Shown piece by piece: positions 56,902 through 63,340 of a DNA stretch of 64,000 bases. Made by a program: the position numbers and the translations under genes. This DNA comes from Candidatus Syntrophocurvum alkaliphilum (GTDB lineage: Bacteria > Bacillota > Syntrophomonadia > Syntrophomonadales > Syntrophomonadaceae): assembly GCF_009734445.1 (NCBI RefSeq), contig NZ_CP046457.1:372001-436000 (forward strand). The letters run 5' to 3'. Under the pieces are notes generated by a model. It was given only the letters and a program-made list of their open reading frames with translations, was not told where the DNA came from and searched no databases. Position 1 is the first letter of the stretch; each line of letters begins with the position of its first letter.

Positions 56902-57340
56902 GGCTAATCACTCCTCTTAAAAAAGTTATTATTTAAGCATATATGATTAGAATTTTATAGACAAGCTTCTTATGGTTAATATAGAAATAATTTTAATTTT
57001 TTTACCCTAGAAAAAGCAAGTCCTAGTGTAAAGGTCCTTAACAAAAATGTTGTTTTGTAAATTACATTTAATAACTACAAAAACTTAAGGATGCAGTAAA
57101 ATTATTTAAATAATTTAGTTTATTTATGTAGCTTTAACTTTATTTTAATTATTTAGAAGAAATTAAGACTATTTTGGAGATTATTTACTATGAGCAACTT
57201 ATTAAGGTTCAAAATTGGATTTAAAGGTTAATATTGCTTTTAAATCTTTTTGTGTTCCTTTTAAAATTAAAGCTATAATTAAGATTATAATTAAGATTAT
57301 AATTAAATAGCCTCCTATGATGTCTATAATAACATTCTTT
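56902..57340. other. intergenic region before the c-di-AMP riboswitch
   Basis: AT-rich, no supported gene. It includes TTAAGATTATAA-like short tandem units (57277-57305) and presumably the promoter of the betaine operon. A minus-strand frame here runs through the riboswitch and is rejected. Confidence 0.5.
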
Positions 57341-57446
57341 ATGCTTAATCCTAGTATAGGAACGGGGGATCCAAATTTTTTGGGGTGAATCCAAATATTG
57401 GTAGGGCTCCCTAGCCCGAACCCGACAGCTAACCTCGTAAGCAATT
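57341..57446 (+). ncRNA. c-di-AMP riboswitch (ydaO/yuaA class)
   Basis: The text follows the ydaO aptamer closely: ATGCTTAATCCTA, GGAACGGGGGATCC, TTTTTGGGGTGAATCC, GGTAGGGCTCCCTAGCCCG, AACCCGACAGCTAACCTCGT and TAAGCAATT. The ends ATGCTTA and TAAGCA(A)T form P1. The class turns genes off when c-di-AMP is bound. A possible expression platform is TTAAGGGGGA (57446) pairing with TCCCCACTTAA (57536), followed by a T-rich stretch at 57568. The regulated operon is the betaine transporter downstream. Confidence 0.88.
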
Positions 57447-57644
57447 AAGGGGGAATGGATTAATAGAGTTTTTTATATGCATTTCAAATATTACATATAA
57501 TGCCTATTTTGAAGGATAGTACAAACATCCTAAATCCCCACTTAAAGTAACCTCAAAATATAACATTTTTTTTATAATTTTTAAAAAAATTATATGCTAT
57601 ATGGGCATGCTATATAGTATCAATATTTGTTAAGGATGATGATA

Positions 57645-59717: not shown

Positions 59718-60608
59718 ATGATGTTAAAAAAACAAAGTAAATTATTAGCTTTAATAGCCTTAATAATGTTTGCAACTGTAAGTGTTATGGGGTGTGGACC
59801 TGCCGATGATCCGGATGTACCAGATGTGCAAGATGTAACACTTTTATATGTTGAGTGGGATTGTGCAAATGCTACAACTCATATAATGGCTCATATTTTA
59901 GAAAATGAAATAGGTGGATACAATGTTGAGACAATGCCGCTAGCAGCTAGTGCTATGTATACAGGTCTAGCAACTGGTGATGGAGATGCAATGGTAACAG
60001 CTTGGTTACCAGTAACTCATGCTGAATATATGGATCAATATGGTGATCAAATCGAAGACCTTGGACCAGCGATGGAAGGTGCTGTACTAGGCTTAGTAGC
60101 TCCTGAGTATGCAGAGTTTAACTCTATTGAAGAATTACCTGACTATGTTGATGAACTAAATGGTGAAATTGTTGGTATAGATCCTGGTGCTGGAGTAATG
60201 GGTCTAACAGAAGATTTAATAGTTGAATATGGATTAGATGAAGCAGGCTTTGAATTAGTTGAAGGTAGTGATGCTACTATGACAGCTGCATTAGATCGTG
60301 CTATCTCCAATGAAGAACCTGTTGTAGTTACAGGATGGGCACCACACTGGAAGTTTGGTTCATATGACTTAAAAATCTTAGAAGATCCAAAGCTTATATT
60401 AGGTGAAGAAGAAACAATTAACAACCTTGTTAGACAAGGATTACAAGAAGATTTACCAGAAGTATATGAATTATTAAGTAATCATTATTGGACTCCAGAT
60501 GATTTAGGAGATGCTATGGTAATGGTTGAGGAAATGGGTGATACCCAAGCAGCTGCAGAACAATGGGTAGCTGAAAATCAAGACTTAGTAAACCAGTGGT
60601 TACCATAA
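59718..60608 (+). CDS. proX: glycine betaine binding lipoprotein, ProX-like half order
   Basis: A 296-aa lipoprotein with lipobox SVMGCGP (Cys about 26). The first half (about 38-145) has LLYVEWDCANATTHIMAHIL, TGLATGDGDAMVTAWLP and SIEEL; the second (about 150-296) has EIVGIDPGAGVMGLTEDL, VVTGWAPHWKFGSYDLKILE and the ending AAAEQWVAENQDLVNQWLP. The Trp residues in VEW, TAW and TGW match the aromatic betaine cage of OpuAC, though OpuAC itself has the halves reversed. The 17-base gap to proW completes the operon. Confidence 0.92.
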   Translation: MMLKKQSKLLALIALIMFATVSVMGCGPADDPDVPDVQDVTLLYVEWDCANATTHIMAHILENEIGGYNVETMPLAASAMYTGLATGDGDAMVTAWLPVTHAEYMDQYGDQIEDLGPAMEGAVLGLVAPEYAEFNSIEELPDYVDELNGEIVGIDPGAGVMGLTEDLIVEYGLDEAGFELVEGSDATMTAALDRAISNEEPVVVTGWAPHWKFGSYDLKILEDPKLILGEEETINNLVRQGLQEDLPEVYELLSNHYWTPDDLGDAMVMVEEMGDTQAAAEQWVAENQDLVNQWLP

Positions 60609-60632
60609 GTTTGCAAATATAATAATATTTAT

Positions 60633-60663
60633 AAAACCCTACCACTATGAGGTAGGGTTTTTA
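60633..60663 (+). terminator. terminator of proVWX operon
   Basis: AAAACCCTACC actatga GGTAGGGTTTTT. Confidence 0.88.
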
Positions 60664-60922
60664 TTTAATTGTAAGTTGAAATTAATTAGTTTATTTTACT
60701 ATATTTTGCGTGTGTGTTCAGTTAGGGTATATTTTTATTAAGTGATTATTTTATATGTTATACATTCAATTAAATTTCTACGACAAATTATTTAGTTTAT
60801 TTCTATTACCCTCTGTATTAAATATTATTACTATACAAAAATTTATGTTTGTTATAGTGTTATAACTTATATAAGTATGTAAAAAAGAGGATTTCTAAAA
60901 AAATAAAGAGGGAGGGTTTCTA
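60664..60922. other. intergenic region with likely promoter of the second binding protein
   Basis: AT-rich, no gene supported. GTTATAGTGTTATAAC (60852-60867) is a near palindrome near the expected promoter and could be an operator. AGAGGGAGG before ATG 60923 is the ribosome site. Confidence 0.45.
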
Positions 60923-61846
60923 ATGAAATATGGAAAGCAAGGTAAATTATTTATATTATTTGCCTTAATAATATTTGTCAATTTAATTATTATAGGATGT
61001 GGACCATCAGATGATCCAGAATCAGTTGGAGAGGTTAGTGTAGTAGATCTATTTAATGGACAAATAATTGGCATAGATCCTGGTGCTGGAGTTATGGATA
61101 TGGCTGAAACTGCACTTGATAAGTATGGTTTAACAGATGCTGGTTATGAACTAGTTGAGGGTAGTGATGCTACAATGGCAGCCGAATTAGATCGTGCTAT
61201 AACTAATAATGAATGGGTAGTAGTAACAGGTTGGGCACCACACTGGAAATTTGGTAAATATGATTTGAAAATATTAGATGATCCATTAGGAGTATTTGGT
61301 GAAGAAGAAACTATAAACAATATAGTTAGATTAGGTTTACAAGATGATATGCCAGAAGTATATGAACTCTTAGATAACCATTTTTGGACAGGTGAAGACT
61401 TAAGCGCGGCTATGGCAATTGCTGAAGAAAGTGAATCAGCAGAAGCAGCTGCAGCTCAGTGGATATCTGAAAATCAAGTATTAGTAGAGACATGGTTACC
61501 TATAAACTTTGATGCTGAAGCAAATGCCGGTCAAGAGGTAACATTGCTTTATGTTGAGTGGGCATGTGCTAGTGCTACAACACATATTATAGCTGATATT
61601 CTAGAAAATATAATGGGATATAGTGTGGAAATAATGCCAGTATCTGCAAGTGCTATGTACACTGGATTAGCAACTGGTGTTGGTGATGCAATGGTTGCAG
61701 CTTGGTTACCATCAACACATAGTGATTATATGAAGCAATATAATTATCAAGTAGAAGATCTTGGTCCATCTATGGAAGGTGCAGTTCTAGGGTTAGTAGT
61801 TCCGGAATATGTAAAAATAGATTCAATTGAAGAGATGATTAACTAA
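60923..61846 (+). CDS. glycine betaine binding lipoprotein, OpuAC-like (halves swapped)
   Basis: A 307-aa lipoprotein (lipobox IIIGCGP). It is clearly related to its neighbour at 59718, but the order of the two halves is reversed: first IIGIDPGAGVMDMAETAL to AAAAQWISENQVLVETWLP (about 48-192), then a short linker and EVTLLYVEWACASATTHII to GLVVPEYVKIDSIEEMIN. B. subtilis OpuAC has this order. All three cage Trp are kept. It lies beyond the operon terminator with its own promoter and no permease. Confidence 0.92.
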   Translation: MKYGKQGKLFILFALIIFVNLIIIGCGPSDDPESVGEVSVVDLFNGQIIGIDPGAGVMDMAETALDKYGLTDAGYELVEGSDATMAAELDRAITNNEWVVVTGWAPHWKFGKYDLKILDDPLGVFGEEETINNIVRLGLQDDMPEVYELLDNHFWTGEDLSAAMAIAEESESAEAAAAQWISENQVLVETWLPINFDAEANAGQEVTLLYVEWACASATTHIIADILENIMGYSVEIMPVSASAMYTGLATGVGDAMVAAWLPSTHSDYMKQYNYQVEDLGPSMEGAVLGLVVPEYVKIDSIEEMIN

Positions 61847-61860
61847 ATAAATAAAAAATT

Positions 61861-61889
61861 AAAAAACACCCATTAGGGGGTGTTTTTTA
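61861..61889. terminator. bidirectional terminator between opuAC-like gene and trpS
   Basis: AAAAAACACCC attaggg GGGTGTTTTTT; T-runs on both strands serve the converging genes. Confidence 0.85.
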
Positions 61890-61894
61890 ATTTT

Positions 61895-62896
61895 TTATTT
61901 ATTAAAATAATTTATTCCTAGAGCATCTTTAACTTCCAGAATTGTTTCTTTTGCAACATTACTTGCTTTTTTAGTACCTTCCATTAAAATATCTTTTACT
62001 AATTGTGGATTATTTTCATATTTTATTCGTCTTTCGCGCATTGGTTCAATTAATTCATCAATTCTATTAGTTAGGTTTTTCTTACAAGCTACACAGCCAA
62101 TTGCACCACCACGGCAATCTTTTTCAATTTGTTCAATACCCTCATTATTGAATACTTTACTATAAGCATAAACTGTACACACATCAGGATTTCCTGGATC
62201 AGTTTTTCTTATCCTACCTGGGTCTGTAACTGCTTTTCGTACTTTAGTTGAAATATCCTTGGAATGATCAGAAAGGTATATACAGTTATTTAAGCTTTTA
62301 CTCATTTTTGCCTTTGCATCTAACCCCATTAGTCGTGGAACTTCACCAATTAAAGCTTCTGGTTCAATAAGTACAGGACTATAAAGATCATTAAAACGCC
62401 TAACAATTTTACGGGTTAATTCAATATGAGGGATTTGATCTTCTCCTACTGGTACAAGGTTTGCTTTAAATATAGCTATATCAGCTGCTTGATTAACTGG
62501 ATAACCTAAAAAACCATAAGTAATATCTTTAATTCCATGTTGTTGTGCCTCGCTTTTTATAGTGGGATTATGGCGTAGAACATTAACTGACGTATACATA
62601 GAAAAATACATAGTTAGTTCATGAATTTCAGGGATTAAACTTTGTATAACTATAGTTGATATTTCTGGGTCAATCCCAGCAGCTAGATAATCAGTAGCAA
62701 TGTTAAGGACATCGCTTTGCAGGTATTCTGGTCTTTCATAATGAGTAGTTAATGCTTGTACATCTGCTATTAATATATAGCTATCATAATCATATTGAAG
62801 TTTTACCCTATTTGCTAGACTGCCTACATAATGACCGAGATGAAGGTTGCCTGTGGGTCTATCGCCGGTTAATATTCTTTTTTTATTTTCTGACAT
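61895..62896 (-). CDS. trpS: tryptophanyl-tRNA synthetase
   Basis: A 333-aa class Ic synthetase. HIGH-type motif GDRPTGNLHLGHYVGSL, the Trp site with YILIADVQALTTHYERPE, KMSKS in KAKMSKSLNNCIYL. The sequence SNKKRILTGDRPTGN at the start agrees with ATG 62896, preceded by GGGAGGAAG. The upstream T-box leader has a UGG specifier, confirming tryptophan. A CxxC-like pair (CRGGAIGCVACKKN) adds a possible zinc site seen in some members. Confidence 0.96.
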   Translation of the reverse strand: MSENKKRILTGDRPTGNLHLGHYVGSLANRVKLQYDYDSYILIADVQALTTHYERPEYLQSDVLNIATDYLAAGIDPEISTIVIQSLIPEIHELTMYFSMYTSVNVLRHNPTIKSEAQQHGIKDITYGFLGYPVNQAADIAIFKANLVPVGEDQIPHIELTRKIVRRFNDLYSPVLIEPEALIGEVPRLMGLDAKAKMSKSLNNCIYLSDHSKDISTKVRKAVTDPGRIRKTDPGNPDVCTVYAYSKVFNNEGIEQIEKDCRGGAIGCVACKKNLTNRIDELIEPMRERRIKYENNPQLVKDILMEGTKKASNVAKETILEVKDALGINYFNK

Positions 62897-62934: not shown

Positions 62935-63165
62935 AACCTCCGCCCTAGAAGGGACGGAGGTTATATCCGCGGTACCACCCTTTTTGACCTAATAGGTCCT
63001 CTTAAAAAGAATTTTATTCCTTATCTTATAACGGAGATTAGCCGGCTTAGCTTACTTGGTTCAGCAGCGACTCTAGAGTCCATTCGGTAATAGATTAATA
63101 TCGGTTCTCAGCTTAATCCGACTCTCTGTTATTAGTTCCGCTTACCTACTATTCTCTATCATTGT
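62935..63165 (-). promoter_or_regulatory. T-box leader of trpS (specifier UGG)
   Basis: On the minus strand: stem I with AGAGAGTCGG, specifier region GAATGGACTCT (UGG, Trp, at 63080-63082), and the T-box core AAAAAGGGTGGTACCGCGG, then the terminator hairpin AACCTCCGTCCC/GGGCGGAGGTT with T-run. Uncharged tRNA-Trp would pair with UGGU and prevent termination. A TATAAT -10 (minus) lies at 63179-63184. Confidence 0.92.
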
Positions 63166-63340
63166 CTTTTAATATTTTATTATAAGAAAGAATAGCACTA
63201 ATAAAGGGTATTTTCAAGTACAAAGTAATTTGAATAGAAGTTATTTTGACGAAGTATGTTTACAAAACAAATAATTTTATATATATTTTTATTAAGTTAA
63301 TTTTATCACAAACTAAAAATATAAAAAGGAGCAATTTTAA

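Follow-up and report, generated by a model that had tools for sequence, protein, structure and literature searches.

Two neighbouring genes at the opu locus of Candidatus Syntrophocurvum alkaliphilum encode betaine-binding lipoproteins, P1 and P2, that carry the same two halves in opposite order. Did this circular permutation arise in place, or do the two genes descend from proteins that were already distinct? Betaine-binding proteins are already known to include circular permutants (CPSARST; 2b4l, 1r9l and 1sw1; PMC2395249). The proteins in that report are less than 24% identical, whereas P1 and P2 are about 70% identical and adjacent. The window, a 64,000-nucleotide stretch of the genome to which all coordinates refer, holds an OpuA-type betaine transporter operon in which a c-di-AMP riboswitch, opuAA, opuAB and P1 follow in order. 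We define the A half as positions 2–113 and the B half as positions 114–257 of the Pfam OpuAC profile (PF04069).

57332–57458, + strand: c-di-AMP riboswitch (ydaO/yuaA leader) of the opuA operon, Rfam RF00379
57645–58841, + strand: opuAA, ABC ATPase with two C-terminal CBS domains, PF00005 and PF00571
58834–59700, + strand: opuAB, permease, PF00528 (E 1e-26)
59718–60608, + strand: P1, canonical-order (A-B) betaine-binding lipoprotein, PF04069 in a single stretch; signal peptide 59718–59792, lipid Cys 59793, A half 59835–60137, 8-residue linker 60138–60161, B half 60162–60605
60633–60661, + strand: predicted intrinsic terminator in the P1/P2 gap, 11-bp stem and T tail
60923–61846, + strand: P2, permuted-order (B-A) betaine-binding lipoprotein, PF04069 in two swapped stretches; signal peptide 60923–60997, lipid Cys 60998, B half 61058–61501, 12-residue linker 61502–61537, A half 61538–61837, then Ile-Asn and the stop
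61852–61897, both strands: predicted bidirectional terminator in the P2/trpS gap, 20-pair stem
61895–62896, − strand: trpS, the conserved downstream neighbour, by which this locus can be recognised in sister genera

A covariance model places the riboswitch upstream of opuAA at 107 bits (gathering cut-off 38; E 2.6e-25), and opuAA matches PF00005 (E 6e-34) and, in two stretches, PF00571. The operon thus unites a CBS-domain ATPase, a permease and a binding protein, the composition of opuA, and the arrangement of opuA followed by trpS is kept in several genera of the bacterial family. A T-box leader lies upstream of trpS (62947–63171, minus strand, 133.7 bits). As the first-pass annotation had stated, P2 is outside the riboswitch operon. 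It lies beyond the predicted terminator behind P1, and the RF00379 scan found no c-di-AMP riboswitch upstream of it. The scanned stretch has 4 terminator-like sites, where shuffled sequence would give 0.5, and candidate promoters for P2 were no commoner than in shuffles. Judged from this predicted layout, P2 is probably transcribed separately and, we infer, separately regulated.

Open reading frames with lipoprotein signal peptides are present for both proteins; P1 reads signal peptide-A-B and P2 signal peptide-B-A. PF04069 matches P1 once, with profile positions 2–257 in order (213.6 bits), whereas in P2 positions 114–257 come first and 2–110 second (204.8 bits; gathering cut-off 21.2). Identity is 74% between the A halves and 67% between the B halves. 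At the DNA level, blastn finds three homologous blocks, with similarity far above chance: 87 bp of signal-peptide sequence at 76% identity (E 1e-13), 305 bp of the A half at 77% (E 3e-66) and 456 bp of the B half at 75% (E 3e-85). P2 is colinear end to end with OpuAC of Bacillus subtilis (2b4l; E 1.5e-56), and P1 matches OpuAC of Lactococcus lactis end to end. Each predicted structure fits the solved protein of its own order with a TM score of about 0.9 (P1, pLDDT 94 and TM 0.85/0.90 to 3l6h, the L. lactis OpuAC; P2, pLDDT 93 and TM 0.90/0.94 to 2b4l), and the alignment of the P2 model with the L. lactis protein spans one half only. Because profile order, end-to-end matches and predicted structures agree, we regard the swap of two highly similar halves, already read in this way from the sequence, as real. 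The accompanying idea that the signal peptide and lipobox were regrown in front of the new N-terminus has to be abandoned. The two signal peptides are homologous: in addition to the shared 87-bp block, the best match of the P2 signal peptide is that of P1 (score 95; runner-up 61).

The ligand cage survives in both orders. Its residues are W47, W96, W207 and H101 in P1 and W213, W261, W104 and H266 in P2, and the three cage tryptophans and the carboxylate-binding histidine are invariant or nearly so in both alignments; the three-tryptophan betaine cage is described in PMC2861598. The lipid anchor sits on different lobes, at the start of the A half in P1 and of the B half in P2. The probable ligand of both proteins is glycine betaine or proline betaine, which both probably deliver to the single OpuAA-OpuAB transporter, in keeping with the earlier suggestion of two binding proteins for one permease.

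P2 resembles B. subtilis OpuAC in its B-A order, end-to-end alignment, fold, tryptophan cage and histidine, but it belongs to another permutation lineage, a common clade being rejected, and the two are 36% identical. P1 is like the OpuAC domain of L. lactis OpuA (3l6g/3l6h) in A-B order, fold and tryptophan cage, and the OpuAA of the window shares tandem CBS domains with L. lactis OpuA. However, the L. lactis OpuAC is fused to the permease, whereas P1 is a separate lipoprotein, and the L. lactis protein is not the closest relative of P1.

That relative is P2. We cut halves from 146 distinct OpuAC units, drawn from the genome of the window, its family and order, its phylum and the Bacillales, and from two solved proteins; trees took 36 to 103 of these, and the half trees used 100 columns for one half and about 147 for the other. 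In each of three samplings P1 and P2 were sisters, with 98–100% bootstrap and 94–96% SH-aLRT support in the A tree, 99–100% and 97–98% in the B tree, and 100% and 99% in the combined tree. Raw pairwise scores also pair them. A 3-residue insertion in the B half is common to both; the other aligned rows are shown without it, except for one with a shorter insertion. The first-pass annotation had taken the two proteins to be mutually closest and the permutation to be local, and the half and concatenated trees agree with it on both counts.

We consider it quite likely that P2 arose in this lineage when an opuAC gene was duplicated in tandem, fused and trimmed, with the cage kept and one transporter served. 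The P1 gene would have been duplicated in tandem after the lineage left the other sampled genera. The duplicate would have retained its signal peptide and lost its first A half, its C-terminal tail would have been joined to the A half in the copy that followed, and the end of P2 would have been set at the linker after this newly joined half. Fold and ligand cage would have stayed unchanged, the sole alterations being the half order and which lobe bears the anchor. Relatives carry tandem canonical opuAC copies in the same place: G001 has two and G051 has three. Past its lipobox, P2 begins with a segment similar to the canonical inter-half linker, and it ends two residues past the motif that opens that linker. 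In several lineages, the linkers of permuted proteins look like the canonical C-terminal tail followed by the segment that precedes A. Such termini and linkers are what duplication, fusion and trimming would be expected to leave behind.

The anatomy and the tandems of relatives fit the earlier proposal of tandem duplication with loss of outer halves, but its intermediate and its traces were not found. No fused A-B-A-B protein was seen among the sampled loci, and searches of the DNA between and behind P1 and P2 for relics of a missing half, A or B, gave only weak matches at chance level. Five comparisons at the DNA level (the P1 stop region or pre-A segment against the P2 linker; the P1 linker against the P2 ends) yielded no convincing junction scar relative to dinucleotide shuffles (best 197/3000). 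With neither scar nor intermediate, we infer the steps in the origin of P2, including the order of duplication, fusion and trimming.

Other histories account for parts of this evidence. A solved representative of each order matches its counterpart end to end, as it would if P1 and P2 were unrelated acquisitions of L. lactis-type and B. subtilis-type proteins. This reading is scarcely credible in view of every half tree and of AU tests against independent origins (p 5e-104 and 1.5e-32), the second value being that for grouping P2 with the B. subtilis protein; placing P1 with its L. lactis counterpart was likewise rejected, and it was a grouping of this kind that the first-pass annotation had named as evidence against itself. 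The position of P2 beyond the operon terminator, with no promoter above chance, might suggest a decaying or non-binding leftover of duplication. We think this very unlikely, because the lipobox and cage are intact, the predicted fold is complete and confident, and dN/dS is about 0.25 at a dS of 0.82 (dN 0.20); P1 and P2 evolve by purifying selection. In a reversed history, P1 would have been rebuilt from a permuted P2-like gene, making the canonical order of the window secondary. The trees, being unrooted, do not show which way the order changed, and the combined data do not reject a single group made up of P1, P2 and the permuted clade from the same bacterial family (p 0.216). This history is nevertheless highly improbable: the 8-residue P1 linker, PDYVDELN, is of canonical length and kind (NDYKDKFK, NDYKHKFD, AEYKDKFK), and P1 occupies the canonical slot directly behind opuAB.

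The main rival to a local origin is an older permutation. Eight genomes of the same family have permuted proteins without an adjoining canonical sister, and the slot between opuAB and trpS holds a permuted gene in genus g22, a canonical gene in g8, g9, g18 and g23, and both orders in the window. As the same slot carries either order across genera, one old permutation with differential loss has to be considered. The family ancestor would have had canonical and permuted genes in tandem, most lineages would have lost one, and the window would have kept both, after which ancient gene conversion would have homogenised its signal peptides, A halves and B halves. Besides the slot, the grouping of P1, P2 and the permuted clade that was not rejected speaks for this, as does the P2 linker WLPINFDA, which is nearer to WLPEGYDA of the permuted clade than to the canonical tails WLPExYK. 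We do not take the common linker residues xYDA to prove that the permutation is shared, because permuted linkers in several lineages have the tail-like composition described above. Conversion over all three blocks seems unlikely to us. It would have to span three separate tracts, and blastn found no near-identical DNA tract between P1 and P2. Private residues common to P1 and P2 number 17, against 1 common to P2 and the permuted clade. Joining P2 to that clade (g22, g3 and g16) is rejected by the combined data (AU p 0.0026) and by the A half (p 0.029), although not by the B half alone (p 0.088). In the permease tree, the permuted genera lie within a clade (97/98 support) from which the permease of the window is excluded (AU p 0.004), so an old permutation would need many losses; the trpS tree gave no resolution.

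The age of the pair also bears on a local duplication. At fourfold-degenerate sites, P1 and P2 agree at 43 of 75 positions against 29.6 expected at saturation (z 3.2), whereas most between-genus comparisons of opuAA and opuAB are near saturation (z −0.8 to 2.6). This suggests that the pair probably arose after the sister genera had split off, yet, given its dS, is not recent; the sample includes one genome of the genus of the window, and a scan of genome contigs gave 6 loci, none from its own group.

Among related bacteria, this protein appears to have been circularly permuted many times over. With 103 proteins, the combined tree needs 17 switches of half order, 15 of them forced by supported branches, in an unrooted tree in which the direction of single switches is unreadable and half recombination between coexisting genes could inflate the count. 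Single halves need 16 switches each, of which 7 (A) and 13 (B) are forced, and a single clade of all permuted proteins is rejected (AU p 1.3e-4). With about 15 supported switches in the gene family, the window is one fairly young case among recurrent events. It seems reasonably probable that OpuAC-type permutation recurs in Bacillota, every time at one and the same pair of boundaries and supplied by tandem duplicates formed at opuA, and that the window is a comparatively young instance. The side-by-side arrangement is not new, contrary to the first-pass annotation: canonical-then-permuted tandems occur in three Bacillaceae genomes (Oceanobacillus salinisoli, locus L113; G525; G608), with the gene order behind opuAA-opuAB in L113 the same as in the window. 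There, however, the two genes fall into different clades, and P1/P2 is the only sampled tandem in which sister proteins have both orders.

The survey also brought to light other arrangements of these domains. One locus (L051, G051:C14) has a single opuAA-opuAB pair with three canonical opuAC genes behind it, and in three others (L100, L103 and L104, in G126, G385 and G424) the permease is fused to two consecutive permuted OpuAC domains, TMD-B-A-B-A. Two genomes of one family (L045, L046, L047 and the G113 loci) have unusually high numbers of OpuAC matches, 13 and 20, in both orders, including a 645-residue open reading frame that ends in a permuted unit. The genome of the window also encodes an OsmF/ProX-type binding protein with halves swapped relative to OsmF (4wep), in an ABC operon present in two tandem copies whose binding proteins are 93% identical (L050:4133-5101 and L050:8072-9052; G000:C1 about 1352100-1357050, minus strand). 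G220, G244 and G230 have permuted relatives of it, while canonical order prevails among the rest.

A permuted ligand-binding lipoprotein of the ABC-transporter type is known in Tp0684/MglB-2, which binds glucose and still does so after permutation (PMC4990184); it is of another fold class and was reported as one permuted subclass, not as recurrent switching. In the open literature, with most subscription papers outside the scope, we found no account of recurrent switching in the OpuAC family or of an adjoining sister pair. Known examples of natural circular permutation come mostly from proteins of ancient divergence. Since P1 and P2 are sisters with swapped halves, the window offers a natural ‘before and after’ of the process. 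An adjacent pair that is about 70% identical and differs in order would allow tests of how such a rearrangement arises, of its effects on folding and ligand exchange, and of whether an anchor on the other lobe alters delivery to the transporter. Within the OpuAC family, the order of the halves is no marker of ancestry.
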